Below are positions 6,152 to 50,717 of a DNA stretch of 50,717 nt, in pieces (the stretch's first letter is position 1; each line of letters starts with the position of its first letter). This DNA is from Verrucomicrobiota bacterium (GTDB taxonomy: Bacteria > Verrucomicrobiota > Verrucomicrobiia > Limisphaerales > J093): contig JAKLFY010000046.1 in NCBI GenBank assembly GCA_022710935.1, forward strand, positions 1 to 50,717, read 5' to 3'. The translations under genes and the position numbers were made by a program. The notes under the pieces are model-generated. The model worked only from the letters and a program-made list of their open reading frames with translations. It did not search any database and was not told where the DNA came from.

Positions 6152-6355
6152 CAGAAGATCGCAAAGAACCGCAAAGCGCAGGGCAACTTGGAGTCTGGGT
6201 CTTTGCATTCCTTTGCCGTTCCTTTTCAGAGCAACCGCGAAATACGCGAAATACGCGAAAGGGAAACAACGCCAAAAGTCTGCCAGCCCGGCTTTTCGCG
6301 TGGTTGGCGTGGTTCGCGGTTGACTCTGCTGAACACTGCTAGTCGTGATCCCGTC
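6152..6355. repeat. repeat modules after hepT
   Basis: CAGAAGATCGCAAAGAACC and an inverted TTTGCATTCCTTTGCCG partner, then CGCGAAATACGCGAAATACG and a GGTTGGCGTGGTTCGCGG inverted partner. These are hairpin-forming module pairs like those at 7900-8050 and 10730-11040. Confidence 0.6.
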
Positions 6356-6640: not shown

Positions 6641-6813
6641 CACTGACGTACTGGCGCACCGGCTACTGACGCACTGACGTACCGACGCACCGACGCACCG
6701 CCTCCCGATCTCCGATCTCCGAACGCCCAAAGCCGGCTGCAAGCCGGCGCTCCGACCCCGATCTCCCATCTCCGAACTCCGAACTTCGAACGCCCATCTC
6801 CGATCTCCGTCGA
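6641..6813 (-). repeat. C/T-rich word leader of gmd with GCCGGC hairpin
   Basis: CGACGCACC words, GATCTCCGATCTCCGAAC, an AAGCCGGCTGCAAGCCGGCG hairpin word (about 6729-6753), then further CTCCGAACTCCGAACTTCG words up to the ATG. The hairpin word recurs at 9625 and, inverted, at about 32026. No Shine-Dalgarno. Confidence 0.7.
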
Positions 6814-8407: not shown

Positions 8408-9532
8408 ATGTCCGTGATTCCGCCGGCTGAAAACCAACATGTCGAGTTCAAGCTCGAAGCGGTGAGCGCGACCGAATTGGCCGAGGAACTCGTCGCCTTC
8501 GCGAATGCCGACGGGGGCGAGATCTGGCTCGGAGTCGACGACGCCGGCCAGCCGGTGGGGTTATCGCGGTCGTACGAGCAGGATGTGATGAACATCAGTC
8601 GCAGCGGCTGCATTCCGCCCATCCGACCGACCTACGAGACCGTGCAATCCGGCGGCATGACGGTCGCTCGCATCGGGGTGCCCAAGGGACCAGATCGCCC
8701 GTACTACACCTCGCGCAACCGGTATTACATTCGCGTTGGCTCGACCAAGCGAATTGCGTCGCGCGAGGAACTCATGCGGCTTTTTCAGGCCGCTGGTCTT
8801 TTTCATTACGATCTCGTCGAGCTTTCGCAGGTCAGCCTCAACCAGCTCAACCTGTCGGCCGTCGCGGATTACTTTGCGCGTTACGAATTGGCCTTTGCGC
8901 GTGAGAGCGAAGCAGAACGCGAACGCTTGATGCGCGCCACCGATATCCTGGGAGATCAGGGGCGCCCCACGGTGGGCGGGCTCCTGATATTCGGCATTTC
9001 ACCCGAGCGGACCCTGCCGCAAGCGGGTATTCAGTTCGCCCACTTCCAGGGGACTCAACCAGGCGCTGACCTGATCGACAAGCGGTTCTTTGGCGGCAGC
9101 CTGCCTGACCAGGTCCAAAACGCTTTGGCAGGCCTCAAGGCCAACCTGCAATCGCCTTCTCGCATCGAGGGGGCCCGGCGGATCGAGCGGGCCGGGTACC
9201 CCGACCCGGTTTTTCGCGAACTGCTGGTCAACGCGTGCGTGCATCGGAACTACAGCATCACCGGATCGCAGATCCGCGTGCTGTTGTTCGCCGACCGGTG
9301 CGAGTTTGCCAGCCCCGGACGCCTGCCCAACACGGTAACTGTCGAGAAGTTGGCGGTTGGCACCAGCTTTGCCCGCAACCCGCTTTTGGTCCGGTTGATG
9401 GAGAACCTGGGATATATGGACCGTCTGGGCCGTGGATTGCCAATGGTCGTCCAAGCCGCGAGCCGCCTCGGTCTGGGTGTCGACTTCGATGATTCGGGCG
9501 ACGCCTTTCGCGTCGTCCTTCGTCTGCCGTGA
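8408..9532 (+). CDS. AlbA_2 (Schlafen AAA_4) domain protein with C-terminal HATPase
   Basis: A 374-residue protein; the ATG at 8408 was chosen because the in-frame sequence upstream is repeat. Residues about 5-130 form an AlbA_2/Schlafen-type domain (QHVEFKLEA, then FANADGGEIWLGVDD at 31-45, then RYYIRVGSTKRIASREEL). The C-terminal part matches the ATP-dependent helicase RecG-like HATPase_c_4 domain (FRELLVNACVHRNYS, FASPGRLPNTVTVEKL, MENLGYMDRLGRGLPMV). Such proteins are annotated as putative transcriptional regulators or accessory defence-type proteins; the biochemical role is unsettled. It is not a sugar enzyme and sits, with the toxin-antitoxin pair, as a non-biosynthetic insert among repeat-flanked genes. 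Confidence 0.85.
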   Translation: MSVIPPAENQHVEFKLEAVSATELAEELVAFANADGGEIWLGVDDAGQPVGLSRSYEQDVMNISRSGCIPPIRPTYETVQSGGMTVARIGVPKGPDRPYYTSRNRYYIRVGSTKRIASREELMRLFQAAGLFHYDLVELSQVSLNQLNLSAVADYFARYELAFARESEAERERLMRATDILGDQGRPTVGGLLIFGISPERTLPQAGIQFAHFQGTQPGADLIDKRFFGGSLPDQVQNALAGLKANLQSPSRIEGARRIERAGYPDPVFRELLVNACVHRNYSITGSQIRVLLFADRCEFASPGRLPNTVTVEKLAVGTSFARNPLLVRLMENLGYMDRLGRGLPMVVQAASRLGLGVDFDDSGDAFRVVLRLP

Positions 9533-9669
9533 CCGACGCACCGGCCACCGACCCACCGGCCACCGTCCACCGACGCACCGACGTACCGCCTCCCGATCTC
9601 CGATCTCCCATCTCCAATCTCCCTAAGCCGGCTGCAAGCCGGCGCTCCGACGCACCGCCCGATCCCAAC
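9533..9669 (-). repeat. C/T-rich word leader of fcl with GCCGGC hairpin
   Basis: Starts right at the previous stop codon with CGACGCACCGGCCACC words, continues with CCCGATCTCCGATCTCCC words and the AAGCCGGCTGCAAGCCGGCG hairpin word at about 9625-9648, and ends 1 base before the ATG. No ribosome binding site. Confidence 0.7.
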
Positions 9670-27481: not shown

Positions 27482-28018
27482 CTGTGGCGAGGAGCGTGGA
27501 CTATGGTAGCCAGAAAGTATGGCCGATGTCACGAAACAGCCCGGTAAGAGAACTCGCATTCCAAGGAGCCAAGAATGCGTGCGTCTGAGTCAACGGATGA
27601 TGGCCTAGCAGTTGGTCGCGAGTGGAGGTCACTATTCCGGGGGGCGCACAATAGCGTGTGGGATATACTTTACAGGTCATCACGGAAAGTCTGTGTTCAT
27701 CTGGGCGCGCGCCGCAAGCCGCCTCGCGGGCTCGGCGTCTGCCCCACCGGCCCGCGCGGGTTGTGGCGCCCATCTCCTCGGCGCCATTGGGTGACGTTTT
27801 CTCTCGGGTTTCCCCATGGTGTGAAGAACCGCTTACACGCGCAACCTGCTCACATCGAGTTTTTTGGCTCGTCAGGCTGACCCTGGCGTCATGGGCACAG
27901 ACCCGGGTGGCTTTGCCGGCGATCCCGGCACTAGCCAGGCGTCCGGCAGGATGCGATTCCCGATGCGTCCGCTCGCTTGAGGGTCAACCTTTTGCAGATG
28001 GGAGCAAATACTTCTCGG
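27482..28018. other. gap without recognised gene
   Basis: 537 bases with several short frames, none with a recognised domain. A 101-residue frame from 27575 is basic and proline/arginine-rich, which is usual for non-coding GC-rich DNA. The word repeats are absent. Given the transposase remnant at 29287, this could be the scar of an insertion event, but nothing here proves it. Confidence 0.35.
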
Positions 28019-29212
28019 ATGAGGCTGTTATTCATAGGCGGCCATTATGTGGAGCAGCTAAAGCCCTTCTTTCGCAAAAATGCGAGGGTAGGACTGGACC
28101 TTGCTGCCAATAACCTACAGGAAGCCATCTTCAAAGGTTTTGAGGAAAACCACTTTGATTGTGATGTGCTAAGCACACCTTATTTGGGGTCTTTTCCTCC
28201 GTACTTCAAGACCCCATTTGTCAAAGGACACAAGTCTGCCGATGGCAAGACGATTAGCATTCCTTACCTCAATGTTTCCTATGTAAAGCGTAGCGATATA
28301 AGACGGCGCTGCCTCTGCCATATCAGAGAATGGTGTAAAGACACGAGGGGTAAGAGAGTTGTGCTCTTCTACAATTTCAGTTGCATCGCTCTTGCTCCTA
28401 GAATTAAGGAGGAGTTTCCTGATACAAAGATCTGTCTGTTGGTCACGGATTTGAAGAAGTACATGGCGGCAGACAGTTTCTTTCTTACCAGAGTGAACGC
28501 CAGCATCTCTTCATATCTCATGAAGGACAATCCAAGCACTTACGGATTTGTCGATGGCTACATTCTTCTAGCATCAAAGATGACAGAATGTCTTCCCATA
28601 GCGAGCAGACCGTGGCTATTAATGGAGGGCATTTATAACCCGTCAGTGCAATTTGATGCTGTCCCCAAGGATGGGAATCGCGTCGTCCTATATACAGGCA
28701 ATCTCGGTAAGCGTTACGGCATTTGTAGTCTTCTCCATGCTTTTTGTCTTATCAAGAATGAAAACTATAGGCTACAGTTTTGTGGAGATGGGGATGGATT
28801 GAGCGATATATCGGAGCTTATCAAGCGAGACAACAGGGTCTCCTATTTTGGCATCTTGCCTCGTGCAGATGTTTTGACGCTGCAGAAGAGAGCTACCATA
28901 TTGATTAATCCTCGGCCTTCTACGGAAGCGTACACGAAGTACTCATTTCCTTCGAAGACAATGGAATACATGGCATCAGGAACGCCGACACTGATGTGCC
29001 GGCTAGGATGCCTGCCGGAGGAATACAAGAACCTTCTGTATTTTATAGAGGACGAGAGTGCAGAGGGCATTAAGGCCGCCATCGTCAACGCGTGCGAAAA
29101 GAGGGACGAAGAGCTGCAGATGTTTGGGAAGGCAGCAGCGGATTTTATTATGCGGAAGAAGACGCCGAAGGTTCAAGCAAGTAGAATCATTGAGTTTATA
29201 GAGAGGCTATGA
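28019..29212 (+). CDS. GT4-like glycosyltransferase, paralogue of 29489
   Basis: A GT-B transferase of 397 residues from ATG 28019 (MRLLFIGGHYVEQL); earlier in-frame starts at 27977 (TTG) and 27998 (ATG) are possible. C-terminal motifs: VVLYTGNLGKRYGICSLLHA, LQFCGDGDGLSDI, VSYFGILPRADV and NPRPSTEAYTKYSFPSKTME. It shares these and LLMEGI with the gene at 29489, so the two arose by duplication. Base composition is clearly AT-richer than that paralogue, which points to separate acquisition rather than a recent local copy. Confidence 0.87.
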   Translation: MRLLFIGGHYVEQLKPFFRKNARVGLDLAANNLQEAIFKGFEENHFDCDVLSTPYLGSFPPYFKTPFVKGHKSADGKTISIPYLNVSYVKRSDIRRRCLCHIREWCKDTRGKRVVLFYNFSCIALAPRIKEEFPDTKICLLVTDLKKYMAADSFFLTRVNASISSYLMKDNPSTYGFVDGYILLASKMTECLPIASRPWLLMEGIYNPSVQFDAVPKDGNRVVLYTGNLGKRYGICSLLHAFCLIKNENYRLQFCGDGDGLSDISELIKRDNRVSYFGILPRADVLTLQKRATILINPRPSTEAYTKYSFPSKTMEYMASGTPTLMCRLGCLPEEYKNLLYFIEDESAEGIKAAIVNACEKRDEELQMFGKAAADFIMRKKTPKVQASRIIEFIERL

Positions 29213-29286
29213 GGACGGGCGAGTTTTTCGTGTCGCGTTTAGCGTGACCGTCGGGGCAGAGAAGGATGGTCACAAGCATCCGGCCA

Positions 29287-29445
29287 TTACCCCCACAGCA
29301 TCAACTGGTTAGGAGGATATGACGATTCGTCTTGGGATTGCGTATTCGCAATCAATTCAGCCAGAGGCACTTGCTCAAACGCGTTGACGCTCAGAATCTG
29401 TAGGATTTGGGACACGCTCAAGTCGATGTGGAGTTCCTTGCGGAT
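29287..29445 (-). pseudogene. IS4-type transposase C-terminal remnant
   Basis: Read on the minus strand this encodes IRKELHIDLSVSQILQILSV, then NAFEQVPLAELIANTQSQDE, then PPNQLMLWG and a stop. This is the C-terminal tail of IS4-family DDE transposases, in which a LSVSQILQILSV-like helix precedes a final NQLxLF-like end. The catalytic domain is missing and the frame degenerates beyond 29445, where the next gene's leader begins. It is the only trace of an ordinary insertion sequence in the window and the only coding trace on the minus strand. Confidence 0.65.
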
Positions 29446-29471
29446 GGGCGGAGCGGCTGGACGCTGCCTAC

Positions 29472-29480
29472 AAGGAGGTG
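29472..29480 (+). promoter_or_regulatory. strong Shine-Dalgarno deciding the start at 29489
   Basis: AAGGAGGTG lies 8 bases before ATG 29489. It is one of the best ribosome binding sites in the window and contrasts with the pyrimidine-rich leaders of the repeat-flanked genes. Confidence 0.75.
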
Positions 29481-29488
29481 TTGTCAGC

Positions 29489-30775
29489 ATGATGGAACCG
29501 ACTCGTGGGCAATGCGGGATGCGGGTCTTGATTGTGGGCTTTGCGGTGCCTGATGCCGAGATGGATGAATTGCGGCGGCGGCACGGTGAGGCTCCCGTCC
29601 AAACCCACAAGTTGTGCTGGAATGTCGTGAACGCTATGGAAGCAGCACCCGATGTTCGTGTGGACCTGATTTCCTCGTTGCCGCTGCCGACATACCCGCG
29701 GTGCCGGCAATTGTGGGTGGGTTATCGGAGGTGGGATCGAGGCCAAGGGAGTTGGAACGTCATGGTCCCTTTCATAAATGTGTTGCTCGTCAAACATCTG
29801 ACCCGCTGGCTCGCATCTTGTCTTTTGGTCCTTCGCTGGCTCATCGCTCGCGACCGTTCGTGTCCGGGCATTGTATTGCTATATGGCATACACAGTGCCC
29901 ACATGTATGCGGCAATGCCGTTGGCGCGGCTCTTCGGAGTCAAGTGTGTGACCCTGGTATCCGATCCGCCTGGGGTTGAGTATCGGTGGGAGGGGCGCGC
30001 GACGCGCTATGCGAAGCGCTTCGACAAGATCCTCTTGAGAACGGCAATGCGCGCCAGTGATGGACTGGTCGTGCTCGCTGAGCGTTTGGGCAAGGACTTT
30101 GCACCTAAGGTTCCCGCATTGCTTATGGAGGGGATCGTATCACCTCGGGATCAAGAGCAGTTCTTGAGGGCCAGTCGCGTTACGGATGACGGGTCTCCTG
30201 TGGCAAGCGCCGATTTCGTGATCATGTACGCAGGAGGACTTCTTCGATCCTACGGCGTCGGCCTGCTGCTTCGAGCTTTTGAGTCCTTGCCGGATCACTG
30301 TCGCCTCTGGATATTTGGCTCAGGAGAAATGCGTGAGGAGATTCAGGCTGCTGCGGCCGTGGATGCGCGAATCGTGTACTGGGGTTTTGTTTCCAATGCC
30401 GAAGTCGTGCGACGCTTTCAGGAGGCGAGTGTTCTGGTCAACCCACGTCCATCCACTAACGACTTCACGCTTTACAGCTTTCCTTCGAAAGTGCTTGAGT
30501 ATATGGGATCTGCGCGGCCCGTGGTTTCCACGCGGTTGGCGGGTATCCCCGAGGAGTACTTTCAACACATAATACCCCTGGACGAGGAGACGCCCGAGGG
30601 TCTTGCGTCATTGCTCACGACGCTGTCCAAGATGCCGAAAGAGGAACTCGATTCTATTGGCCAGCGATCGCAAGAGTTTGTACTCCGCAGCAAGAGCATT
30701 GAGGTCCAGGGCTCGCGTCTTCGCGAGTTCCTCCAGCGTGTCATTGGAGGAGGCACGCCGGTCACTCGAGCTTGA
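29489..30775 (+). CDS. GT4-like glycosyltransferase, paralogue of 28019
   Basis: A 428-residue GT-B enzyme. The start is fixed by AAGGAGGTG upstream; the Rossmann strand MRVLIVGFAVPDAEMDEL begins ten residues in. Motifs include VTLVSDPPGVEYRW, LLMEGIVSP, VIMYAGGLLRSYGVGLLLRA, LWIFGSGEM, IVYWGFVSNAEVV and NPRPSTNDFTLYSFPSKVLE. These align with the gene at 28019. The insertion-sequence remnant lies between the pair. Probably adds one sugar of the repeat unit; specificity unknown. Confidence 0.88.
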   Translation: MMEPTRGQCGMRVLIVGFAVPDAEMDELRRRHGEAPVQTHKLCWNVVNAMEAAPDVRVDLISSLPLPTYPRCRQLWVGYRRWDRGQGSWNVMVPFINVLLVKHLTRWLASCLLVLRWLIARDRSCPGIVLLYGIHSAHMYAAMPLARLFGVKCVTLVSDPPGVEYRWEGRATRYAKRFDKILLRTAMRASDGLVVLAERLGKDFAPKVPALLMEGIVSPRDQEQFLRASRVTDDGSPVASADFVIMYAGGLLRSYGVGLLLRAFESLPDHCRLWIFGSGEMREEIQAAAAVDARIVYWGFVSNAEVVRRFQEASVLVNPRPSTNDFTLYSFPSKVLEYMGSARPVVSTRLAGIPEEYFQHIIPLDEETPEGLASLLTTLSKMPKEELDSIGQRSQEFVLRSKSIEVQGSRLREFLQRVIGGGTPVTRA

Positions 30776-30853
30776 CTCGTTGGGCCATTTTCTGCCATTC
30801 CGGAATTCGTGGTGCGGCCATGCCGTCATGCCACTTGTGAAGTTTCGACAACC

Positions 30854-31984
30854 ATGAAGACCCCTCGGGCACTGTTCTCCAAAAAGACCCTGCTCATCAC
30901 CGGCGGCACCGGCAGTTTTGGAAACGCGGTGCTTCGCCGGTTTCTGAAAAGCGACATCGGCCAGATCCGCATCTTTTCGCGCGACGAAAAGAAGCAGGAT
31001 GACATGCGCCACGAGTACCGGGATGCTCGCCTCAAGTTCTACATCGGCGACGTCAGGAACATCGACAGCCTCGAAGAGGCGCTGGTAGGGGTCGATTTCG
31101 TGTTTCACGCGGCCGCCTTGAAGCAGGTCCCGTCGTGCGAGTTTTACCCGGTCGAGGCGATCCGGACAAACTCGCTCGGAACCGACAATGTGTTGCAGGC
31201 GTCGGAGCGCAACGGCGTCAAGCGGGTCGTGGTGTTGAGCACGGACAAGGCGGCCTATCCCATCAATGCCATGGGTATGTCCAAGGCATTGAGCGAGAAA
31301 GTCATGGTCGCGCGTTCTCGGGTCGCGGGCGAGCGCGGCCTGGTCTTTTGCGGCACCCGGTACGGCAACGTGATGGCTTCGCGCGGGTCGGTGATCCCGT
31401 TGTTCCTTGACCAGATCGAGGCGGGCGAGCCGATCACCGTGACGGACCTCGACATGACGCGGTTCATGATGACCCTCGACGACGCCGTCGATCTGGTCCT
31501 GTTCGCCTTCGAGCATGGGCGTCCGGGCGATCTCTTTGTCCAGAAGGCCCCCGCCGCGACGATCGCGACCCTTGCCGAGGCGCTCAAGCGGTTGATGGGC
31601 GCGCCTGATCACCCGGTGAAGGTGATCGGGACACGGCATGGCGAGAAACTCTACGAAACGCTGCTGACACGCGAGGAACGGGCCCGAGCCGAGGACCTGG
31701 GCAACTACTTCCGGGTGCCAGCCGACGGCCGCGACCTGAACTACAATCTCTATTTCACCGAAGGCATGTCGGTCTCGGGCGGGCTCGAGGACTATCACTC
31801 GCACAACACAACCCGGCTCGATGTGGACGGCATGATCGAGCTGCTGCTCAAGCTTGATGAAGTGCGAGAAGCGATGGGGAGGCGGGGAGCAGGGAGCAGG
31901 GAGGGAAGGGGTAAGGGCACGGGGGCAAGGGCGAGGCGCGGAGGGGCAAGCGGCAAGGGCAGAAGGGCAAGCGGTAAGGGGTAA
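30854..31984 (+). CDS. fnlA: UDP-GlcNAc 4,6-dehydratase (5-inverting) / 3-epimerase, FnlA/CapE/WbjB type
   Basis: First enzyme of UDP-L-FucNAc synthesis, acting on UDP-GlcNAc in the cytoplasm. Start ATG 30854 places GGTGSFG at residues 17-23. Family hallmarks are FSRDEKKQDDMRHEY, AALKQVPSCEFYPVEAIRTN and the active site STDKAAYPINAMGMSK, where methionine (M140) replaces the usual tyrosine before K144. The family is about 345 residues; this protein has 376 because from about residue 342 the reading frame runs into GGGAGCAGGGAGCAGG and GGCAAGCGG repeat words, giving a Gly/Arg/Ala tail until a chance stop. Followed by fnlB and fnlC. Confidence 0.94.
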   Translation: MKTPRALFSKKTLLITGGTGSFGNAVLRRFLKSDIGQIRIFSRDEKKQDDMRHEYRDARLKFYIGDVRNIDSLEEALVGVDFVFHAAALKQVPSCEFYPVEAIRTNSLGTDNVLQASERNGVKRVVVLSTDKAAYPINAMGMSKALSEKVMVARSRVAGERGLVFCGTRYGNVMASRGSVIPLFLDQIEAGEPITVTDLDMTRFMMTLDDAVDLVLFAFEHGRPGDLFVQKAPAATIATLAEALKRLMGAPDHPVKVIGTRHGEKLYETLLTREERARAEDLGNYFRVPADGRDLNYNLYFTEGMSVSGGLEDYHSHNTTRLDVDGMIELLLKLDEVREAMGRRGAGSREGRGKGTGARARRGGASGKGRRASGKG

Positions 31985-32476
31985 GGGGCGGAGATGGGAG
32001 ATGGGAGATGGGAGATCGGGCACTGGAGCGCCGGCTTGCAGCCGGCTTAAGATCTCCGGAGATCGGAGATCGAAGATCAGTGCGTCGGTACGCCAGTACG
32101 TCGGTGGGCGGTGCCTCGGTAGGCGGTAGCCGGTGAGCGCGGACTCACAGCAGATCGCAAAGGAACGTAAAGTGCAGGCCAGCCTGGAATTTGGGACTTT
32201 GCGTTTCTTTGCGTCCTTCTGTGAATGAAGGTCTTCTCTGTGTGCTCTGCGCCTCTGTGGTAAATCCCATTCGATGACTGTCACCGCCCCGAATTGAACC
32301 ACAGAGACACAGAGGACACAGAGGAAGGCATGTGCGGCGGAGGTTCAACAGAAGATCGCAAAGGAACGCAAAGAACTGAAGAGTCGAAGCCTGGCCCTTT
32401 GCGTTTCTTTGCGCCCTTCTGTGAGGATGGTCTTCCGGTCACCATTTGTATTGCACACCTGTTTCGATCCAATTAG
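31877..32476 (+). repeat. word mosaic running from the fnlA tail into the intergenic gap
   Basis: Order: GGGAGCAGGGAGCAGG, GGGGTAAGGGCACGGGGGCA and GGCAAGCGGTAAGGGG words (inside the fnlA frame to 31984), GGAGATGGGAGATGGGAG, inverted GAGCGCCGGCTTGCAGCCGG hairpin (about 32029), GGTACGCCAGTACGTCGG words, CAGCAGATCGCAAAGGAAC with partner CTTTGCGTTTCTTTGCGTCC, TTCTCTGTGTGCTCTGCGCC with partner AACCACAGAGACACAGAGG, then AGAAGATCGCAAAGGAACGC with partner CTTTGCGTTTCTTTGCGCCC. It repeats the order seen at 4400-4800. Confidence 0.8.
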
Positions 32477-32612
32477 CCGGGAGGAGTTAACCCCGAACCA
32501 CCTGCCTGCGTCGACCTGTCCGCGTGTGCCCCGGAGAGTTGACCCTGCTCCCTGCTCCTATCTCCCAACGGGTACGGACAGTCCACGCATCGTGTGTCTG
32601 TAGAGTCAACTC

Positions 32613-34052
32613 ATGAGCACCAAGACCATCCTTGTGACAGGCGCAAACGGCTTTGTCGGGCGCAATCTGTCCGCTCATCTTGCCCGCCGCGAGGATCTGA
32701 CCCTGTTCCGCGTCGACGTCGATTCAGCGCCTGACGAGTTGGATCGGGCCATTTCCTCGGCTGAGATCATCTTTCACCTGGCCGGTGTCAACCGTCCCGA
32801 GGACCCCGGCGATTTCAAGTCGGGCAACACGGGCTTCACCGAGGACTTGTGCGGCAAGATTGTCAAAGCGGGCCGCAAACCGCTTCTCGTCCTGTCGTCT
32901 TCAATCCAGGCGGCATTGGACAATCCTTACGGCGTCAGCAAGCGCGGCGCCGAGGATGCGGTCAAGGACTGGGCACAGCGGGGAGGGGGAAGGGCAATCA
33001 TCTTCCGACTGAAGAACGTGTTTGGGAAGTGGTGCAGGCCGAACTACAACTCGGTGACAGCCACGTTCTGCCACAACATCGCCCATGACCTGCCGATCAC
33101 GATCAGCGATCCGGACAAGGAACTCGATCTGGTGTACATCGACGATGTTGTCGAGGCGTTTGGGAAGGTGATCGAGCAGGGAGCCGGAGCGGGAAGCGGG
33201 GAGCGGGGAGAAGACAGAGGACAGAGGACAGAGGGCAGAGGGCAGAGGACAGGGGATGCGGCAGGTGAACGGCTGGATTCCAGCCGCCCTTCCCCCTTGC
33301 CCCCTACCGCTTCCCCCTTACCGCCTGGCCCTTGCCCCTTACCGCTCGGCCCCTGGGAATACCGCGAGGTCGAGAGGTCTTACCGGATCACTCTGGGCGG
33401 GTTGGCGGCGCGGATCCGGTCGTTTCGCGAGATACGGCGCACCCTGGTGCTGCCTGATCTGGGCGATCCGCTGAATCGGTGTCTGTACGCCACCTATCTG
33501 AGCTACTTGGACGGACCGGACTTTGCATACCGGCTCGATCAGAAGACCGATCCGCGCGGCAGTCTGGCCGAGTTCGTGAAGTCGGCGGCGGCCGGTCAGA
33601 TCTTCGTCTCGCGGACCAAGCCCGGCATCACCCGGGGCAACCACTATCATCATACGAAGACCGAGAAGTTCCTGGTGCTCGAAGGCGAGGCCATTATCCG
33701 GTTTCGCAGGGTGGACAGCAGGGAGCAGGGAGCAGGGAGCAGGGAGCAGGGAGCAGAGATTTGCGGGCGATATCGCACTGAGCACCCTGGATCATCGACC
33801 TCCCAAGCGGTCTCCACACTCCCGGAGCTCCCTGCTCCGGGCTCCGGGCTCCGGGCTCCCCGCTCCGAGCTCCCTGCTGCTGTGATTGAGCATCGGGTGA
33901 GTGGACGCGACTTTGTGGTTGTGGATATCCCGCCCGGTTACACGCACTCGATCGAGAACGTCGGTAGCGGCGAGTTGGTCACGCTGTTCTGGGCCAGCGA
34001 GCCGTTCAATCCCCAGCAGCCGGATACGTATGGGATGGAAGTGGGGCGGTGA
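32613..34052 (+). CDS. fnlB: FnlB/WbjC/CapF-type epimerase-reductase with two in-frame repeat insertions
   Basis: Bifunctional protein: an N-terminal short-chain dehydrogenase (GANGFVG at residues 10-16, PYGVSKRGAED at 105-115) and a C-terminal cupin (PGITRGNHYHHTKTEKFLVL, IPPGYTHSIENVGSGELVTL). It epimerises and reduces the FnlA product to UDP-2-acetamido-2,6-dideoxy-L-talose. The protein has 479 residues where the family has about 370. The excess is two low-complexity segments, residues about 189-247 and 370-423, encoded by the same word repeats that fill the intergenic gaps. Each keeps the frame. One lies between the two domains and the other in a cupin loop, so the enzyme could still fold, which is inference. 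Confidence 0.92.
   Translation: MSTKTILVTGANGFVGRNLSAHLARREDLTLFRVDVDSAPDELDRAISSAEIIFHLAGVNRPEDPGDFKSGNTGFTEDLCGKIVKAGRKPLLVLSSSIQAALDNPYGVSKRGAEDAVKDWAQRGGGRAIIFRLKNVFGKWCRPNYNSVTATFCHNIAHDLPITISDPDKELDLVYIDDVVEAFGKVIEQGAGAGSGERGEDRGQRTEGRGQRTGDAAGERLDSSRPSPLPPTASPLPPGPCPLPLGPWEYREVERSYRITLGGLAARIRSFREIRRTLVLPDLGDPLNRCLYATYLSYLDGPDFAYRLDQKTDPRGSLAEFVKSAAAGQIFVSRTKPGITRGNHYHHTKTEKFLVLEGEAIIRFRRVDSREQGAGSREQGAEICGRYRTEHPGSSTSQAVSTLPELPAPGSGLRAPRSELPAAVIEHRVSGRDFVVVDIPPGYTHSIENVGSGELVTLFWASEPFNPQQPDTYGMEVGR
33177..33353 (+). repeat. in-frame repeat insertion 1 in fnlB
   Basis: Left part is G/A-rich (GAGCGGGAAGCGGGGAGC, then ACAGAGGACAGAGGACAGAG), right part is the complementary C/T-rich type (CCCTTGCCCCCTACCGC, CCCCTTACCGCTCGGCC). 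About 59 codons, no stop. Lies between VVEAFGKVIEQ and WEYREVERSYRITLG. Confidence 0.85.
33720..33881 (+). repeat. in-frame repeat insertion 2 in fnlB
   Basis: Left arm (GGGAGCAGGGAGCAGGGAGC) and right arm (CTCCCTGCTCCGGGCTCCGG) are inverted relative to each other around a core with GCGGGCGATATCGCACTGAG. About 54 codons, no stop, between EAIIRFRRVDS and AVIEHRVSGRDFVVVD. Confidence 0.85.
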
Positions 34053-34088
34053 GCAGAGAGCAGGGAGCAGAGAGCAGGGAGTTTCGGA

Positions 34089-34460
34089 ATGAGTCACGAC
34101 ACAAAACAGTTTCGTTTTGAGGACCTTGAGATCTGGCAAAGGGGCGCAGCAATCAGCACCAGACTGTTCGAGCTGGCCGATGGTCTGGAGCAGGCCCACC
34201 GATTCCGGTTTGCCGAGCAGCTCCGAGCTGCAACCCTGAGCATCACGAACAACATCGCTGAGGGTTCCGGGAGCGATTCGAATGCCGAGTTTGCTAACTT
34301 CTTGAAGTTCTCGCGACGCTCGGTCTTCGAGGTAGCAAACATACTGATGATTCTGTCACAAGGACGGTATCTGGATCCGGCTCAAGTCTTGCCGTTTCTG
34401 CAAGAACTGGTCGAGCAGAGCCGAATGATCCTTGCCTTCATGCGAAGTCTGCGCTCATAA
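34089..34460 (+). CDS. four helix bundle protein (S23-like)
   Basis: A 123-residue protein of the four-helix-bundle family first known from intervening sequences of 23S rRNA genes (FEDLEIWQRG near the start, RFAEQLRAATLSITNNIAEG and FLKFSRRSVFEVANILMI). Function is unknown; homologues are often found inside polysaccharide and sugar-nucleotide clusters. It stands between fnlB and fnlC and interrupts an otherwise conserved gene order. The gaps on both sides (34053-34085 and 34473-34509) are GAGCAGG words, + type before it and complementary after it, so the gene looks like a repeat-flanked cassette. Confidence 0.88.
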   Translation: MSHDTKQFRFEDLEIWQRGAAISTRLFELADGLEQAHRFRFAEQLRAATLSITNNIAEGSGSDSNAEFANFLKFSRRSVFEVANILMILSQGRYLDPAQVLPFLQELVEQSRMILAFMRSLRS

Positions 34461-34472
34461 GAGCCGCGCTGC

Positions 34473-34509
34473 TGGCACTCCCTGCTCCCTGCTCCCTGCT
34501 CCCTGCTCT
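34473..34509 (-). repeat. CCCTGCT-word leader of fnlC
   Basis: CTCCCTGCTCCCTGCTCCCT words run to within 3 bases of the fnlC ATG. They are the complement of the GAGCAGG words after the fnlB stop. No Shine-Dalgarno. Confidence 0.75.
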
Positions 34510-34512
34510 GAC

Positions 34513-35751
34513 ATGAAAGTACTAACCGTCGTCGGGACCAGGCCCGAGATCATCCGCCTCTCGCGCGTGATCGCAAAGCTGGACCAGTACACGGACCATG
34601 TCCTCGTCCATACAGGCCAGAACTACGACTACGAACTGAACCAGATCTTCTTCGAGGATCTCGAGATCCGGAAGCCGGATCACTTTCTCGATGCCGCCGG
34701 CAAGAACGCCGCCGAAACGGTCGGGGCGATCATCGCGCGTGCGGATGCCGTGCTCGAAAAGGAGAAGCCCGACGCCTTTCTCGTCCTGGGCGACACGAAT
34801 AGCTGCCTCGCCGCATACCCGGCCAAACGACGTAAGATCCCCGTCTTTCACATGGAAGCCGGGAACCGCTGCTTCGACCAGCGGGTTCCGGAAGAGATCA
34901 ACCGGAAGATCGTCGATCACCTCGCCGACATCAACCTGCCTTACTCGACCATCTCGCGCGAATACCTGCTGCGCGAGGGGTTCCCGCCCGACCGGGTCAT
35001 CAAGACCGGAAGCCCGATGTTCGAGGTGCTACACCATTACCTGCCCAAGATCGAACGGTCGGATGTGATCGAGAGGCTGGGGCTGCGCTCAGGGAGCAAG
35101 GAGCAAGGAGCAAGGAGCAGGGAGCAAGGAGCAGGGAGCGAAGCGGCAAGCGGGAAGGGGGAAGCGGGAAAGGCAGAGGGCAGAGGACAGAGGACAGAGG
35201 ACAGGGAGGGGTATTTTTTGGTGAGTTGTCATAGGGAGGAGAATGTCGATTCACCCAGGCAGTTGGCCAAGTTGGTCGAAGTTCTGAATGGACTGACGCG
35301 CGAGTTCGGGCTGCGCGTGATTATGTCGACACATCCGCGGACCCGGAAACGCCTGGACGAGTGCGGGCTGAAACTCGACAGCCGGGTCGAGTTGCTGAAA
35401 CCGCTTTGCCTGACCGACTATGTGCGTCTCGAGCTTGGGGCCCGGGCGACTTTGTCGGATAGCGGCACGATCACGGAGGAATCGTCCATTCTCAACTTCC
35501 CCGCCCTCAACATTCGCGAGGCGCATGAGCGTCCGGAAGGGATGGAAGAGGGATCGGTGATGATGGTGGGGCTGGAATGGCAGGGGATACGACGAGCGCT
35601 CAGGGTGCTTGCAGGACAGTCGCGGCACCAAGAGCGGACATTGCGCGTGGTGGTCGATTACGATGTGCCCAACGTCTCGGAGAAGGTGGTGAGGATTGTC
35701 CAGAGTTACACAAGCTATGTTCAAAGGCGGGTCTGGAGTATCGAGGAATGA
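34513..35751 (+). CDS. fnlC: UDP-N-acetylglucosamine 2-epimerase family, FnlC/WbjD/CapG type, with in-frame repeat insertion
   Basis: Last enzyme of the UDP-L-FucNAc pathway, a non-hydrolysing 2-epimerase. Motifs are VVGTRPEIIRLSRVI, VHTGQNYDYELNQIFFEDL, HMEAGNRCFDQRVPEEINRK, VSCHREENVDSP and LSDSGTITEESSI. ATG 34513 puts the first motif at residue 6. The protein has 412 residues; residues about 193-232 are low-complexity sequence encoded by GAGCAAGGAGCAAGG and AGAGGACAGAGG words. They are inserted exactly between VIERLGL and YFLVSCHREENV, where relatives join directly. Without it the length (372) matches the family. The frame is kept and active-site motifs are untouched. Confidence 0.93.
   Translation: MKVLTVVGTRPEIIRLSRVIAKLDQYTDHVLVHTGQNYDYELNQIFFEDLEIRKPDHFLDAAGKNAAETVGAIIARADAVLEKEKPDAFLVLGDTNSCLAAYPAKRRKIPVFHMEAGNRCFDQRVPEEINRKIVDHLADINLPYSTISREYLLREGFPPDRVIKTGSPMFEVLHHYLPKIERSDVIERLGLRSGSKEQGARSREQGAGSEAASGKGEAGKAEGRGQRTEDREGYFLVSCHREENVDSPRQLAKLVEVLNGLTREFGLRVIMSTHPRTRKRLDECGLKLDSRVELLKPLCLTDYVRLELGARATLSDSGTITEESSILNFPALNIREAHERPEGMEEGSVMMVGLEWQGIRRALRVLAGQSRHQERTLRVVVDYDVPNVSEKVVRIVQSYTSYVQRRVWSIEE
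35089..35208 (+). repeat. in-frame repeat insertion in fnlC
   Basis: AGCAAGGAGCAAGGAGCAAG words, GCGGCAAGCGGGAAGGGGG words and GCAGAGGACAGAGGACAGAG words in that order, on the coding strand. About 40 codons with no stop. Confidence 0.85.
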
Positions 35752-35766
35752 GACACCTGGGGTTCT

Positions 35767-36912
35767 GTGCGCACTGAATGTCAATCGCCCGCAGTGCACG
35801 TCGTGTTTGTGGCGGAGTACGGTGCGGCGGGGCGGGACGGCATGACCGAGTCCCTGATGGATGCCATCCAGGAACTGCGTCCTGAGTGGCGGATTACATC
35901 ATTGCATGGCTTCCTCAGGACTTACCGACCGGGTGGTCTGCGGCCCGCGCGCCTTCTCAATCTAATCTACCTCTACCTCAGAGTTGTCGTGTTCCTGATC
36001 GTTCGCTGCCCCGACGTTATCGTCGCGGCAACCACGCCACCGTTTCTGCAGATTTGGGCGGCGCTGCTTGGTTCCATGTTCAAAACCAAGGTTGTCGTGT
36101 GGTTGCTCGACTATCATCCCGAAATGGAGGCTCGTTGGTTGGAGCGCCACCGTCTGGGCTGGATCGCAACTCTGTTGCGCCGGATCGATCGGATCGCTCT
36201 CAAGGGGACCTGCCTGGTCGTAGGACTTGACGACGCGATGGTCGATGCGGTGCGGGAACGATGTCCGGGGGTTGCCGCTGTAGCTCATCCCACGTGGAAT
36301 CTGGCGGCAGAGGGTTTTGCCATGCAAGACTCAGACGATGTACCGGCCTCAGAACTGCGACTGGCCTATATCGGCAACCTTGGCATACCGCATGACCTGC
36401 ATGCGCTCGAGCGTTTCTGTCGGACCGCGGCGAAGACACGGCGCGTGCGTCTGCTGGCGGTCGGCTGTTCGGTGGCAGGAACCAGTCGTCTGGGAAGGCT
36501 CTGCCAGGCGGCTGGTTGCGAGTTCTCGACGCTGCCTCGATGCACGCAGCAGGCAGTAGCCTCGCACGTCGAAAGTTTCAAACCGCACTTTGGCATTGTA
36601 CTTTTGCGCGATGACTACGCTGGGCTGGCATCGCCAAGCAAGTTTATGGCCTATCTCCGGCTCGGACATCCGCTCCTCTATATAGGTCCACGAGGTACCA
36701 ATGCGGACATCGTCTGCCGGCGATTCGGGGGTGGCCTTGCTGTCACGAACACGGTATCTTCCGAAGACGTGTCAACCGCATGCTTTGAATTGGCCGATCC
36801 GCGACGATTTGCGGAACTGCGGGCTGGAGTTCGAGATGCCTTGGCCTATTTTGCGGGCAAAGACCAACACACTCTGGCGCAACTCCTGGTCGAGCACCTT
36901 CTAGACCGTTGA
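35767..36912 (+). CDS. GT4-like glycosyltransferase (WbuB-like)
   Basis: A 381-residue GT-B transferase starting at GTG, 16 bases after fnlC. N-terminal VHVVFVAEYGAAGRDGMTES, middle PDVIVAATTPPFLQIWAALL and VVWLLDYHPEMEA, and C-terminal LRLAYIGNLGIPHDLHALER and SPSKFMAYLRLGHPLLYIGP. The DYxPE and TTPP motifs are like the WbuB group, which transfers FucNAc in organisms with an fnlABC set. Its position directly behind fnlC supports a FucNAc transferase role, but this is inference. Confidence 0.82.
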   Translation: MRTECQSPAVHVVFVAEYGAAGRDGMTESLMDAIQELRPEWRITSLHGFLRTYRPGGLRPARLLNLIYLYLRVVVFLIVRCPDVIVAATTPPFLQIWAALLGSMFKTKVVVWLLDYHPEMEARWLERHRLGWIATLLRRIDRIALKGTCLVVGLDDAMVDAVRERCPGVAAVAHPTWNLAAEGFAMQDSDDVPASELRLAYIGNLGIPHDLHALERFCRTAAKTRRVRLLAVGCSVAGTSRLGRLCQAAGCEFSTLPRCTQQAVASHVESFKPHFGIVLLRDDYAGLASPSKFMAYLRLGHPLLYIGPRGTNADIVCRRFGGGLAVTNTVSSEDVSTACFELADPRRFAELRAGVRDALAYFAGKDQHTLAQLLVEHLLDR

Positions 36913-40115: not shown

Positions 40116-41480
40116 ATGATTCGACTTTCCCGTCGCATTCACCTTTCCATCCCGCATATGGGAAAGCGGGAGCTTGGCTATGTTCAAGACGCATTTGCGA
40201 GCAATTGGCTCTCCACCGTGGGCCCGAACTTGGTAGCCCTCGAGAGCCAGTTCGCAGGCTTGTGCGGACTACCCTGCGTTGCGTTGGGAAGCGGCACGGC
40301 AGGGATTCATCTGGGATTGAAGCTCCTCCGGATCGGCTGCGGAGACGAAGTGGTCACACCGACTCTTAGCTTCGCGGCAAGCTGCAATCCTGTCCGCTAT
40401 GAACAAGGCGTTCCCGTGTTCATCGATAGCGACCGCGCCACATGGAATCTGGATCCCAACTTGCTCGAGGATTTTCTCGCACGGCGGGCGCGGATTAATA
40501 GGCTGCCTAAGGCTGTGACTGTCGTTCACTTGTTCGGTCAGTCAGCCGATCTGGACCCTGTTTTGGAGATATGCGGTCGGTATGAGTTGCCTCTTCTCGA
40601 GGATGCGGCGGAAAGCCTTGGGGCACGGTACAAGGGCCGGCATCCGGGCACACTCGGAGCTGTGGGTGTGTTCTCGTTCAATGGCAACAAGATGATCACC
40701 GCGACGTCGGGTGGCATGTTAGTTTCAGGCCGCCCGAAGTGGGTGGAGAAGGCGCGGCATTGGAGCACCCAGGCGCGAGACACGGATCCGGAGGGCGTGA
40801 GTAACTACGTGCACTCGGAGGTAGGGTACAATTATCGGATGAGCAATGTGCTGGCAGGCATTGCTTTGGGGCAGCTCGAAGTTCTCGATCTGCGGGTCCA
40901 GCAGCGCCGCGCCGTGTTCGATCGATATTGCGAGGCCTTTGTTGACATCCCGGGGATCCAACCGCAGCCGGAGGCCGACTTCGGAGTTCGGAGATCGGAG
41001 ATGGGAGATGGGGGGGGCGGTGCGTCGGTGGAGCAGGGAGCAGGGAGCGGGGAGCGGGGAGCGGAGGGGCAAGAGGGAAGCGGGGGTAACGTTCAACGCT
41101 CAACGAACAACGCTCAACGTTCAACTTCCAACCATCAACCATCAACCATCAACCATCAACCTACCACAGGCAGCCTGCACACCCGCTGGCTGAGTTGTTT
41201 CCTCATCGACGAGTCGAAGTTCGGGATGTCGTCTTCGGACCTGATCCGTTTTCTCGATGCGGCGAACATCGAGTCGCGTCCGGTCTGGAAACCGATGCAC
41301 ACCCAACCGCTGTATCGGGGGTACGAATGTGTCGGGGGAGAAGTGGCGGCGGATCTGAACCGGCGGGGGATTTGCCTGCCCAGTTCGAGTTCGTTGAGCG
41401 AAGAGGATCAACAGTTCGTCATCGAACGGATTCGAGAGGCGCATACGAGAAGACTTGATAAAGACCAAACCACTAACTGA
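40116..41480 (+). CDS. EpsN/PglE-type DegT aminotransferase with in-frame repeat insertion
   Basis: PLP enzyme of the EpsN/PglE group, which aminates the C4 keto group of UDP-2-acetamido-4-keto-2,6-dideoxyglucose. Motifs: HLSIPHMGKRELGYVQDAF, VALGSGTAGIHLGLKLL, D163 in LLEDAAESLGARYKG and the Schiff-base K192 in FSFNGNKMITATSGG. The protein has 454 residues; residues about 289-354 are low-complexity repeat sequence inserted between QPEADFG and HTRWLSCFLIDESKFG. Without it the length (about 388) matches the group. Its natural substrate would come from the WbpM/CapD-like dehydratase at 46290 and the acyl step could be the adjacent GNAT (inference). Confidence 0.92.
   Translation: MIRLSRRIHLSIPHMGKRELGYVQDAFASNWLSTVGPNLVALESQFAGLCGLPCVALGSGTAGIHLGLKLLRIGCGDEVVTPTLSFAASCNPVRYEQGVPVFIDSDRATWNLDPNLLEDFLARRARINRLPKAVTVVHLFGQSADLDPVLEICGRYELPLLEDAAESLGARYKGRHPGTLGAVGVFSFNGNKMITATSGGMLVSGRPKWVEKARHWSTQARDTDPEGVSNYVHSEVGYNYRMSNVLAGIALGQLEVLDLRVQQRRAVFDRYCEAFVDIPGIQPQPEADFGVRRSEMGDGGGGASVEQGAGSGERGAEGQEGSGGNVQRSTNNAQRSTSNHQPSTINHQPTTGSLHTRWLSCFLIDESKFGMSSSDLIRFLDAANIESRPVWKPMHTQPLYRGYECVGGEVAADLNRRGICLPSSSSLSEEDQQFVIERIREAHTRRLDKDQTTN
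40980..41177 (+). repeat. in-frame composite repeat insertion in the EpsN/PglE-type gene
   Basis: Ordered words on the coding strand: GGAGATCGGAGATGGGAGAT, GGTGCGTCGGTG, GAGCAGGGAGCAGGGAGCGG, GGGGCAAGAGGGAAGCGGGG, AACGCTCAACG / AACGTTCAAC, and CCATCAACCATCAACCATCA. The same order from the GGTGCGTC word on is found after the exosortase gene at 50305-50445. The frame stays open for about 66 codons. Confidence 0.88.
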
Positions 41481-45916: not shown

Positions 45917-46289
45917 GCCCGATTTCATCGTTTCTCGCGGTTCACCTCGTCCGTGACGATCATCTCTTTGGTTACTCGTAATCGTAATCGTAATCGCTTC
46001 CCCTAACCCGGAAATCTCACCAGTGGGGCGGTCGCGGCATTCCTGACGGTCGGTGGGTGAGATTTCCGGGTCCTGTCACTTTGAATGGCGACTGGGTCGA
46101 GATTACGATTACGAGTAGGATTACGATTACGACCGGAGGCAGCGGTTTGTTTGCCCACTGTCGTACCGCCCACCGACGCACCGACGCACCGCCCACTGTC
46201 GTACCGCCCACCGACGCACTGGCTACCGACGCACTGGCTACCGACGCCCCCCCAAACTCCGATCTCCCATCTCCGAACCCCGATCTCCC
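45917..46289. repeat. repeat mosaic before the WbpM/CapD-like gene
   Basis: TAATCG hexamers (45978-45996), element C (46007-46070), GATTACGATTACGAGTAGG (46100-46130), then ACCGCCCACCGACGCACCG words and CTCCGATCTCCCATCTCCG words up to the ATG. The C/T-rich leader has no Shine-Dalgarno. Just before it, GTTTCTCGCGGTTCACCTCG matches the stretch at 8170-8190 (GTTTCTCGCGGTTCACCTTG), showing a longer shared segment. Confidence 0.75.
46007..46070 (-). repeat. palindromic element C, copy 3
   Basis: Perfect 15-bp arms CCCGGAAATCTCACC / GGTGAGATTTCCGGG around AGTGGGGCGGTCGCGGCATT. Same orientation as the copy at 25858. Confidence 0.85.
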
Positions 46290-48242
46290 ATGTCCCCTTC
46301 TGAATCTCCCGTGAACTCTCCTCTGCCGCCTTCGCCTCCACCGCCCGCCGCGGGTGGCAAACCCGGGTCGGCTGTCCCGAAGCAACGCAACGGGTTTTCG
46401 CTCGCCGAGAGGCGGATCATTCTCCTCATCCTCTACAGCGCCGGGCTGATGGCCTCTTACTGGCTTGCTTTCGAGTTCCGATTCGACTTCAAGGTGCCGG
46501 AGTCCTTCCAAGACGAATTGGGTCACGGCTGGTGGATGGCTCTTCCGCTCAAGCTGCTGGCGCTGGTGATCTTTGGCCAGTTCACGGGCTTGCTGAGCTT
46601 CTTCGGTCTGCCGGATCTGTGGCGGATCTTCTACGCGATGACCGCGGTGTCTCTGCTGCTCTTTCTAGCCAGCGTGACTGGGATTGTCGGATCGACACTT
46701 CCTCGTGGAGTCATTCTCATCGATTATGTCTTGTCGTTTGCGGCGATTGTTGGCATTCGCACCGGCTTTCGGGTGATCCGCGAGCGGTTGCGCGGACGCG
46801 GCGGGCCGCGCACATTGACCGCCAAGCGGGTTGGCATCATCGGGGCAGGGGATGTCGGCGCATCGCTGGCCAAGGACCTGCTCTCGAGACGCGGCCTCGG
46901 TCTGGTGCCGGTGGCCTTTTTCGACGACGACTCGCACAAGTGGAATTCGCAGGTCCATGGCATCCCGGTCCGGGGCCAGCCGGAGCGATTGCGGAGTCCG
47001 GATTTCCGAATGGATCTGGACGAGGTGATCATTGCGCTGCCCACGGCCAGCGCGGAGAGGATCCGCGAGATTGTCCGTCTCTTGCAGAGCCTGCACCTCA
47101 AGTTCGAGACGGTGCCGTCCTACGAACAACTCGCTACCGGCAAAGTGCGCGTCAGCCAGTTGCGTCCGGTCGAGATTCAAGACCTCTTGAATCGCGAGCC
47201 GGTCAAGCTCGACTCGGCCTCGATCCAGCAGCAGATCCAGGGGCGCACGGTGATGGTGACAGGCGCGGGCGGGAGCATCGGCAGCGAGCTCTGCCGCCAG
47301 ATCGTCGAGCGGGATCCGCGCGCCCTGCTCATGCTCGATCAGTCTGAGGTCCAGTTGTTCCCGATCGAGCAGGAACTGCTCGGGCAGGGTTACGGCGGCC
47401 AGGTCGTGCCCGTTGTTGCCGATATTCTCGATGAAGCCCGGATGCGATTCATCTTCTCGAGGTTCAAGCCGGAACTGATCTTTCACGCCGCTGCCCACAA
47501 ACACGTGCCGATGATGGAAAGCCAGCCGGGCGAGGCGCTCAAGAACAACTCGATCGGCACCGCCCGCCTCTCGAACCTGGCGCGCGAATACGGCGTGGAT
47601 CGCTTTGTCCTGATCTCGACCGACAAGGCCATTAACCCGACGAGTGTCATGGGGGCGTCGAAACGCCTGGCCGAGATCTATCTCCAGGCCCTCTCAGCCA
47701 GCGCCTCGAATGGCACGAAGTTCATGGCCGTCCGGTTCGGCAACGTGCTCGGGTCCTCGGGCAGTGTCATCCCCGTGTTCACCAAACAGATCGCCGCGGG
47801 CGGTCCGGTAACGGTGACCCATCCCGAGGTGAAGCGCTATTTCATGACCATCCCCGAGGCTGTGGGCCTGGTGCTCCAGTCGGCGTTCATGGGCGAAGGC
47901 GGCGAGATCTTCGTGCTCGATATGGGGCAGCCGGTCAAGATCGTCGATCTGGCGCGTCAGTTGATCGAACTCAACGGGCTCGAACCGGACGAGGACATCG
48001 AGATCCGGTTCACGGGGCTGCGTCCGGGCGAGAAACTGTTCGAGGAACTGTCGCATCGCACCGAGAACCACCAAACGACGAGCCATCCGAAAGTGATGCG
48101 TTTTGTGAGCCAGCCGCGGACGCTCGACGAGGTCCAGGCCGAGTTCGCGGCGCTCGAACGGCAGCTCGACAACACCGAGCGCAACCAGCTCAAACAGCGC
48201 ATCAAACAGCTCGTGCCCGAGTATCAGCCGTATCTGGTGTGA
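46290..48242 (+). CDS. WbpM/CapD/PglF-type nucleoside-diphosphate-sugar 4,6-dehydratase
   Basis: A 650-residue membrane-anchored UDP-GlcNAc 4,6-dehydratase. A proline-rich N terminus is followed by four hydrophobic segments (residues about 45-165), a CoA-binding-like Rossmann domain (KRVGIIGAGDVGASLAKDLL) and the catalytic domain (VMVTGAGGSIGSELCRQIVE, AAAHKHVPMMESQPGEAL, STDKAINPTSVMGASKRLAE with Met replacing Tyr, and GSSGSVIPVFTKQIAAGGP). The product, a UDP-4-keto-6-deoxy-HexNAc, is the substrate for the EpsN/PglE-like aminotransferase at 40116. The proline-rich tail follows a repeat leader directly, so a later start is possible. Confidence 0.94.
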   Translation: MSPSESPVNSPLPPSPPPPAAGGKPGSAVPKQRNGFSLAERRIILLILYSAGLMASYWLAFEFRFDFKVPESFQDELGHGWWMALPLKLLALVIFGQFTGLLSFFGLPDLWRIFYAMTAVSLLLFLASVTGIVGSTLPRGVILIDYVLSFAAIVGIRTGFRVIRERLRGRGGPRTLTAKRVGIIGAGDVGASLAKDLLSRRGLGLVPVAFFDDDSHKWNSQVHGIPVRGQPERLRSPDFRMDLDEVIIALPTASAERIREIVRLLQSLHLKFETVPSYEQLATGKVRVSQLRPVEIQDLLNREPVKLDSASIQQQIQGRTVMVTGAGGSIGSELCRQIVERDPRALLMLDQSEVQLFPIEQELLGQGYGGQVVPVVADILDEARMRFIFSRFKPELIFHAAAHKHVPMMESQPGEALKNNSIGTARLSNLAREYGVDRFVLISTDKAINPTSVMGASKRLAEIYLQALSASASNGTKFMAVRFGNVLGSSGSVIPVFTKQIAAGGPVTVTHPEVKRYFMTIPEAVGLVLQSAFMGEGGEIFVLDMGQPVKIVDLARQLIELNGLEPDEDIEIRFTGLRPGEKLFEELSHRTENHQTTSHPKVMRFVSQPRTLDEVQAEFAALERQLDNTERNQLKQRIKQLVPEYQPYLV

Positions 48243-48381
48243 GATCGGAGATGGGAGATCGGAGATCGGAGATCGGAGATCGGTGCGTCGGTGCGTCGGT
48301 AGCCGGTGCGTCGGTGCGTCGGTGGCCGGTGGAACAGCGACAGGAGTCTGCGAATTCTTAATCGTAATCGTAATCGTAATC
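48243..48381 (+). repeat. G/A-rich word run after the WbpM/CapD-like gene
   Basis: Starts at the stop codon: GATCGGAGATGGGAGATCGG words, GGTGCGTCGGTGCGTCGGT words, GGTGGCCGG, then TAATCG hexamers at 48360-48381. Same order as 2716-2861. The remaining bases to 48518 are ordinary. Confidence 0.8.
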
Positions 48382-48518
48382 GCTACTCCTGACTTGCTGA
48401 AACTGCGGACCGGCCCGGGCTGGAATTAGGAGGAAAGCATAATCAGAGTCACAAAGCAGAATAGCCAGCTTGGCAAATGTAACAGGCTGCTCTACGGCGA
48501 TTGTGAATAGACACTTTT

Positions 48519-50304: not shown

Positions 50305-50717
50305 TCGAGGCACGGGCGGTGCGCCGGTAGCCGGTGCGTCGGTGCGTCGGTGGAGCAGGGGGCAGGGAGCAGGGAGGCAAGCGGCAAGCGGGGGCAACGC
50401 TCAACGCTCAACGTTCAACTTCCAACCATCAACTATCGACCATCAGCCAATTGATGACTGTCACCGTCCCGGATTGAACCACAGAGACAGAGCACGCGGA
50501 GAGCACCGCATCCAAAGAGCCGCGGATGAAACACGGATGGCACGGATAAGCCCCGGAAGTTACGGATTGTTCTTCGCGGAGCGGGTCAGCGCGGACTTAC
50601 GTCCACGGCTGCACCCCGTCCGTAGCCGCCGTCGTGAGACGGCGCTGGTCATCATCCTCCGCGGAGCGGGTCAGCGCGGACTTATCCCGCGGCGGCGGGA
50701 CGGCTACGCGGCTTCCG
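50305..50717 (+). repeat. composite word repeat and module array at the right edge
   Basis: Order: GGTGCGCCGG/GGTGCGTCGG words, GAGCAGGGGGCAGGGAGCAG, GGCAAGCGGCAAGCGGGGGC, AACGCTCAACGCTCAACG, CCAACCATCAACTATCGACC, then ATTGAACCACAGAGACAGAG (50475 on) and CGGATGAAACACGGATGGC. Two direct copies of CGCGGAGCGGGTCAGCGCGG lie at 50575 and 50660, 85 bases apart, beside GC-rich palindromes. No gene is supported to the window end. Confidence 0.75.

Follow-up and report, generated by a model that had tools for sequence, protein, structure and literature searches.

In Coxiella, the intervening sequence (IVS) of the 23S rRNA consists of an S23 open reading frame carried in the stem of inverted repeats, and is excised by RNase III; a mobile origin has been proposed for it and is unproven (PMC4990558). 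Mobility of the 23S rRNA IVS, with the ORF as a component, is a proposal of Ralph and McClelland (1993), as cited in PMC4990558. In-frame insertion into protein-coding genes is known from the Rickettsia palindromic elements (RPEs), which are palindromic inserts of about 150 bp lying in frame in unrelated genes (PMC10969869). Moreover, tandem 7-bp repeats that are capable of forming hairpins, and that sometimes lie within ORFs, are described in the accessible text of reports on the cyanobacterial STRR and on the TAACTGA repeats of Beggiatoaceae (PMC2670836, PMC4679880).

The locus described here lies on contig C201 of a 7.5-Mb draft genome of 259 contigs, and the window, that is the whole stretch of DNA analysed, is 50,717 nt long. 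Profile searches assigned an NAD-dependent epimerase/dehydratase domain (PF01370) and a Polysacc_synt_C cupin domain (PF14667) to the product of fnlB, of which the solved homologue is Staphylococcus aureus Cap5F (2zkl, 3st7, 3vhr). A sequence-only reading of this DNA had placed a palindromic, in-frame insertion of about 54 codons in a loop of the cupin at 33720-33881. The insertion (insertion 2) was recovered with the same right edge, and its left edge moved by 6 nt, so that it spans 33714-33881 and comprises 56 codons (fnlB codons 368-423, 168 nt) where protein alignment of six homologues shows approximately four. Alignment to the solved homologue places it at the cupin turn matching Cap5F residues 314-316. 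The arm-to-arm inverted score of 24 compares with a mean of 11.4 and a maximum of 19 in 500 shuffles, and none of 1,011 window positions of identical geometry scored higher than 17. The predicted RNA fold has an energy of -102.8 kcal/mol (z -4.0), and the predicted DNA fold a z of -3.1. The left arm, in which TRF finds 5.7 heptamer copies with 100% matches (the word can also be written GGGAGCA), is separated from the right by a filler of 65 nt (33757-33821). This filler has no other match across the 7.5-Mb genome, where the matches to insertion 2 are to arrays only and its word occurs on just three contigs; a search of phages for insertion 2 gave no match. The word GGGAGCA is stop-free in all six frames, which was considered as a special property and dropped, as half of all heptamers are likewise.

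The best match to insertion 2 outside itself, 31 of 31 positions identical, is the right arm of an S23 element that lies 170 bp downstream, between fnlB and wecB. The S23 protein scores well above the curated cut-offs (87.1 against 33.8 bits for PF05635 and 83.8 against 24 bits for TIGR02436), and the arms of the element reach an inverted score of 28, compared with a maximum of 22 in shuffles. Insertion 2 and the S23 arms are thus made of one heptamer, and that this heptamer brackets the downstream S23 gene is the main point that the sequence-only reading missed. An S23 gene with short inverted arms AAGAGGGAAGCGG is also present at the fnlB-wecB junction of G003, and no S23 match was found between the two genes in five other homologous loci (L038, L165-L167, L169). 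The wecB gene of G003 has extra sequence in the loop that holds the wecB arrays of the window. Coordinates of the local features are collected in the table below.

Features of the fnlB-wecB region, in window coordinates
Feature	Position	Strand	Evidence
C-terminal extension of fnlA, made up of heptamer arrays	31885..31989	+	repeat finding
fnlB, bifunctional SDR reductase and cupin, CapF/Cap5F-like, 479 aa, host of both inserts	32613..34052	+	PF01370, PF14667
Insertion 1, in-frame arrays (GAGCGGG, AGAGGAC, then CCCTTGC-type)	33177..33356	+	repeat finding, protein alignment
Insertion 2, S23-less heptamer hairpin	33714..33881	+	tandem-repeat, alignment, structure-homologue, fold and arm-score evidence
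Left arm of insertion 2, (AGCAGGG)5.7, perfect	33717..33756	+	TRF
Right arm of insertion 2, inverted degenerate array (CCGGGCT/CCCTGCT)	33822..33881	+	repeat finding, arm alignment
Left arm of S23 element, (GAGCAGA/GAGCAGG)4.4, from the fnlB stop codon	34051..34081	+	repeat finding
S23 gene, 23S rRNA-intervening-sequence / four helix bundle protein, 123 aa	34089..34460	+	PF05635 1.1e-24; TIGR02436 8.9e-24
Right arm of S23 element, inverted (CTCCCTG)4.4, which stops 4 bp short of wecB	34478..34508	+	repeat finding
In-frame heptamer arrays (GGAGCAA, GAAGCGG, CAGAGGA) inside wecB (34513-35751)	35090..35204	+	repeat finding

Other parts of the window (1297-9623, 31990-32560, 40981-41161, 46101-46296, 48241-48382 and 50317-50449) hold intergenic composites of short tandem words, among them CGATTA, CGCACCGA, CTCCGAT, CACAGAGGA, CGCAAAG, CGCGAAATA, GTTGAGC and CAACCAT, which often form inverted pairs and have no S23 gene nearby.

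The S23 element at 34051-34508 is organised like the 23S rRNA IVSs of Leptospira and Coxiella, in which inverted repeats on either side of an S23 ORF pair into a long stem. However, insertion 2 itself carries no S23 gene, the window features lie inside fnlB or between fnlB and wecB and not in a 23S rRNA gene (no Rfam match was found at 31500-36000), and the arms here are tandem heptamer arrays with a locus-specific word, of which S23-less hairpins also occur. With its 168 nt, insertion 2 resembles an RPE, an in-frame palindrome of ~100-150 nt within an ORF, but RPE copies share both sequence and peptide, whereas here the heptamer word alone is shared locally, the filler is unique, S23 is central and insertion 2 does not belong to a family of homologous genomic copies. 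Its perfect heptamer copies are also reminiscent of the tandem 7-bp repeats of STRR; in the accessible text of the STRR and TAACTGA reports, however, S23 genes are unmentioned, and the TAACTGA repeats are nearly all direct and not inverted pairs. The DGR accessory protein Avd shares a protein superfamily with the TIGR02436 four-helix-bundle proteins (solved relatives 2gsc and 2rld), but against the 80-bit cut-off of NF033474 the S23 protein of L232 scored a weak 24.1 bits and that of the window was not among the matches listed. In contrast to a MITE, the gene between the matching ends is S23 and not a recognised transposase. No paper joining S23/four-helix-bundle genes with heptamer arrays was found in the open-licence literature. 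To our knowledge, no function has been established for S23 proteins since they were discovered in rRNA intervening sequences, and we know of no means by which heptamer repeats spread.

All six S23 genes of the source genome lie beside arrays of 6-8-nt words, mostly inverted. Next, this association was examined in 60 S23 loci retrieved from the order and in a named sample of 80 S23 loci from many phyla, the latter obtained by one pattern search, with a narrower alignment, that favours one S23 subfamily. In the order-level loci, period-7 arrays cover 5.9% of the sequence within 200 bp of S23, against 0.2-0.6% farther away, and the left flank scored against the reverse complement of the right gave a median of 20, compared with 11 for cross-locus pairs; 25 of 57 inverted-flank scores, and none of those at 222 distal positions, exceeded the 99th percentile. 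In the named sample the period-7 coverage was 8.8% against 0.4-1.5%, and 35 of 69 loci scored above 19, the 99th percentile for cross-locus pairs, the top of 244 distal positions being 18. In a gene-edge control, 39% of S23 genes scored at least 18, compared with 3% of small ORFs of other kinds (Fisher p 1e-15); of the five such ORFs that reached this score, three are themselves S23-like. The array word differs from locus to locus, with a period of 7 nt or sometimes 8 nt. Conversely, 42 of the 47 inverted array pairs that lie 300-600 bp apart enclose a known S23 gene; in this blind reverse test, four of the remaining five enclose previously unrecognised S23 genes, all of them TIGR02436, and the fifth is formed by the arms of two adjacent elements in the window. 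Because the loci had been chosen for their S23 genes, only these blind cases are free of selection bias. About half of the S23 genes have no clear inverted arrays. Upstream of the S23 gene of one locus (L068, 804-955) lies a dispersed repeat, of which about a dozen partial copies with 68-91% identity occur in the congeneric genome G001.

On closed, annotated cyanobacterial plasmids, inverted arrays bracket six of eight S23 genes, and their words include GGGAACA, AGGGTGT, GGGAAAA, GGTGACA and TAAAAGC. The S23 gene and its arrays are present in L275 and L285 and both missing from the related plasmids L278 and L279; present in L272 and missing from L281, L282, L283 and L287; and present in L269 and L270 and missing from L280, L284 and L286. 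The insertion sites are stop-start junctions of co-directional genes, in one case inside an overlapping TAATG. At a cas6-cas4 junction, moreover, L273 and L277 are 98.8% identical outside the junction, and S23 plus arrays in one is matched by a different 200 bp in the other. As judged from these sequence comparisons, the S23 gene and its inverted heptamer arrays are gained or lost as one unit. Together with the S23-heptamer link, the empty sites on closed plasmids make the movement of S23 with its hairpin a testable question. Between L275 and L285 the element shows 99.4% identity, compared with 82% and 91% in its flanks, a pattern compatible with recent transfer or homing-like conversion. At S23 sites the array ends mask target-site duplications, and a TTCTA-type repeat at L288-L290 is a possible duplication that the array ends mimic. 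An S23 empty-site comparison between G000 and G001 was uninformative, as their flanks are not shared. In the type I-D CRISPR loci of two cyanobacterial plasmids, L273 (2477-2845) and L276 (2501-2860), an S23 gene with heptamer arrays separates cas6 from cas4, and loci related to these two have no S23 gene at that position.

Heptamers of S23 elements also recur in the surroundings of the gene. In 24 of 82 loci, the locus's own heptamer was found again at a distance of 0.4-6 kb from S23, with 171 hits in all, compared with a mean of 5.9 loci and 13 hits in a word-swap control. Many of these recurrences are hairpins, composed of a plus array, 20-200 bp and a minus array, with fillers that are mostly unrelated to one another. 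A deacetylase-like gene in G000 and G001 (L069, L148) contains inserts that differ in length and are both in frame; 'deacetylase-like' is our own reading, and the only part of the L148 protein that Pfam names is a different one. Further in-frame inserts separate the E1 domain from the transketolase domain in a fusion (L164) and lie within a DUF58 gene (L143). L256 is also an in-frame case, with direct arrays in a gammaproteobacterial manC, within its nucleotidyltransferase domain, and in an epimerase gene close by. S23-less inserts likewise lie in open reading frames of G109, a single-contig 4.7-Mb genome (L128). At L128, four S23-less GGCGAAT hairpins with shared arms and different fillers lie within 5 kb of an S23 gene (810-5191). 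On a Nostoc plasmid (L290, 1207-1388), a 182-nt hairpin built from the word of the element's own arms interrupts the S23 gene, and the two bases that flank it stand directly next to each other in L288 and L289. Its length is not a multiple of three and it truncates the S23 product; no target duplication beyond 1 bp was found. The filler of this hairpin holds further inverted repeats (CCGCTAAATC..GATTTAGCGG).

The word shared with the adjacent S23 arms, the local sharing of words at other loci, the empty sites and the L290 hairpin together make it probable, though by no means secure, that insertion 2 arose as a hairpin derivative, lacking S23, of a mobile element that is present in complete form 170 bp downstream. 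Such an element, when complete, would consist of an S23 gene flanked on both sides by inverted arrays of a word of 7 nt (sometimes 8 nt). The hairpin, as RNA or single-stranded DNA, would be the substrate, the S23 protein would bind it and assist copying or insertion in trans, and a further enzyme would perform the joining chemistry. Insertion 2 would then be one such hairpin, tolerated in a loop that is variable among homologues, and S23 may be what drives the movement of these elements.

A search of 320 genomes of the order gave a good fnlB match in ten, the source genome included. The congener G001 has both inserts, its contig stopping inside insertion 2, and both are absent from the seven homologues aligned in detail (G003, G040, G061, G098, G142, G147 and G218); the tenth match is that of G087, in two contig fragments. 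The sequence-only reading had looked to such a comparison, and to target duplications at the edges: among the homologues aligned in detail, presence was restricted to the two congeners, and no unambiguous duplication was seen. No empty site for insertion 2 was found within the genus, and its arrival was therefore not directly seen; the nearest are in other genera, where the loop itself is replaced, which blurs the edges at which a target duplication would lie. Over 4.5 kb upstream (27966-32466) the window is 100.0% identical to G001 (L036), with flanks at only 70-93%, and the identity breaks at 32466-32616, an array-rich intergenic stretch just before fnlB. This block may reflect recombination at repeats or a bin chimera.

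The earlier reading had called insertion 2 the second of two. A first insertion does exist, in frame, at about codons 189-248 of fnlB in a loop matching Cap5F residues 185-198, but its arms pair no better than those of shuffled sequence (score 13, mean 13.7) and its predicted RNA fold is unremarkable (z -0.3). Nor is it supported that the two are independent events from which a mechanism could be argued, both being local products of one heptamer-rich neighbourhood. Compared with G001, the fnlB core has a dN/dS of 0.11 (dS 0.36), the part between the inserts 0.05 and insertion 1 itself 0.47, and insertion 1 is longer in G001 by 21 nt (three heptamers) and shorter by 6 nt elsewhere. fnlB is thus under purifying selection around both inserts, and the low dN/dS indicates that the gene has been maintained while carrying them. 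Since the L290 hairpin is not a multiple of three and breaks the S23 gene, insertion is frame-blind, and the frame in fnlB and in the other in-frame cases is therefore kept by selection. Of the two explanations offered by the earlier reading, selection for frame is accordingly favoured over an insertion mechanism that tolerates genes.

The main rival to a mobile S23 element is that the arrays are primary and S23 is their guest. STRR-like repeats would spread or expand alone, for example by template switching at hairpins, with S23 as a passenger and insertion 2 as an ordinary STRR hairpin. The window holds many arrays of 6-9-nt words without a nearby S23 gene, cyanobacterial STRR hairpins of 7-bp repeats are known without mention of S23 in the accessible text of the report, and several L128 hairpins share arms and not filler. 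We nevertheless regard this explanation as unlikely. The empty sites on closed plasmids have neither the gene nor the arrays, which indicates that the arrays were not there first, and inverted pairs at 300-600 bp enclose S23-family genes almost exclusively, four of them found blind. The S23-less arrays so common in the window count against the mobile-element reading too, as do the S23 genes without clear inverted arrays, the fact that no movement enzyme was identified and the unrelated fillers, which are unlike ordinary transposon copies. Moreover, the one hairpin with an empty site is from a cyanobacterial plasmid and has no clear target duplication.

Replication slippage offers a simpler history, in which tandem repeats expanded locally in permissive loops of capsule genes, no mobile element was involved and the inverted arm is a by-product. 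In its favour, the copy number in insertion 1 differs by three units between congeners, this insertion is not significant as an inverted repeat, and the lengths of both fnlB loops vary among homologues. As an account of insertion 2 we consider it improbable, given an inverted partner beyond shuffles, a unique filler, a word identical to that of the S23 arms and the precise hairpin insertion in L290. That misassembly or a bin chimera put repeat sequence into fnlB is very improbable. The G001 contig end within insertion 2 and the identity block at 27966-32466 are what such an artefact might leave, but the in-frame insert is present in two haplotypes ~10% apart in fnlB, and similar inserts occur in the single-contig genome of L128 and on closed plasmids; this explanation was therefore set aside.

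A wider generalisation of the mobile-element reading is attractive but tentative, and we would not yet expect it to hold in full. S23/four-helix-bundle genes might form the core of a pan-bacterial class of mobile elements, with ends set by a 7-nt period and a word belonging to each locus. S23 would act on the hairpin, solo hairpins would explain STRR as well as in-frame palindromic inserts, and the rRNA IVSs would be a specialised branch. Inserts of this kind would supply proteins outside Rickettsia with new in-frame segments, the enzymes of surface-sugar clusters among them.

Finally, the first 75 nt of insertion 2 (33714-33789) are one base off the G001 sequence despite the dS of the fnlB core, a near-identity that may reflect conversion, re-insertion or constraint.
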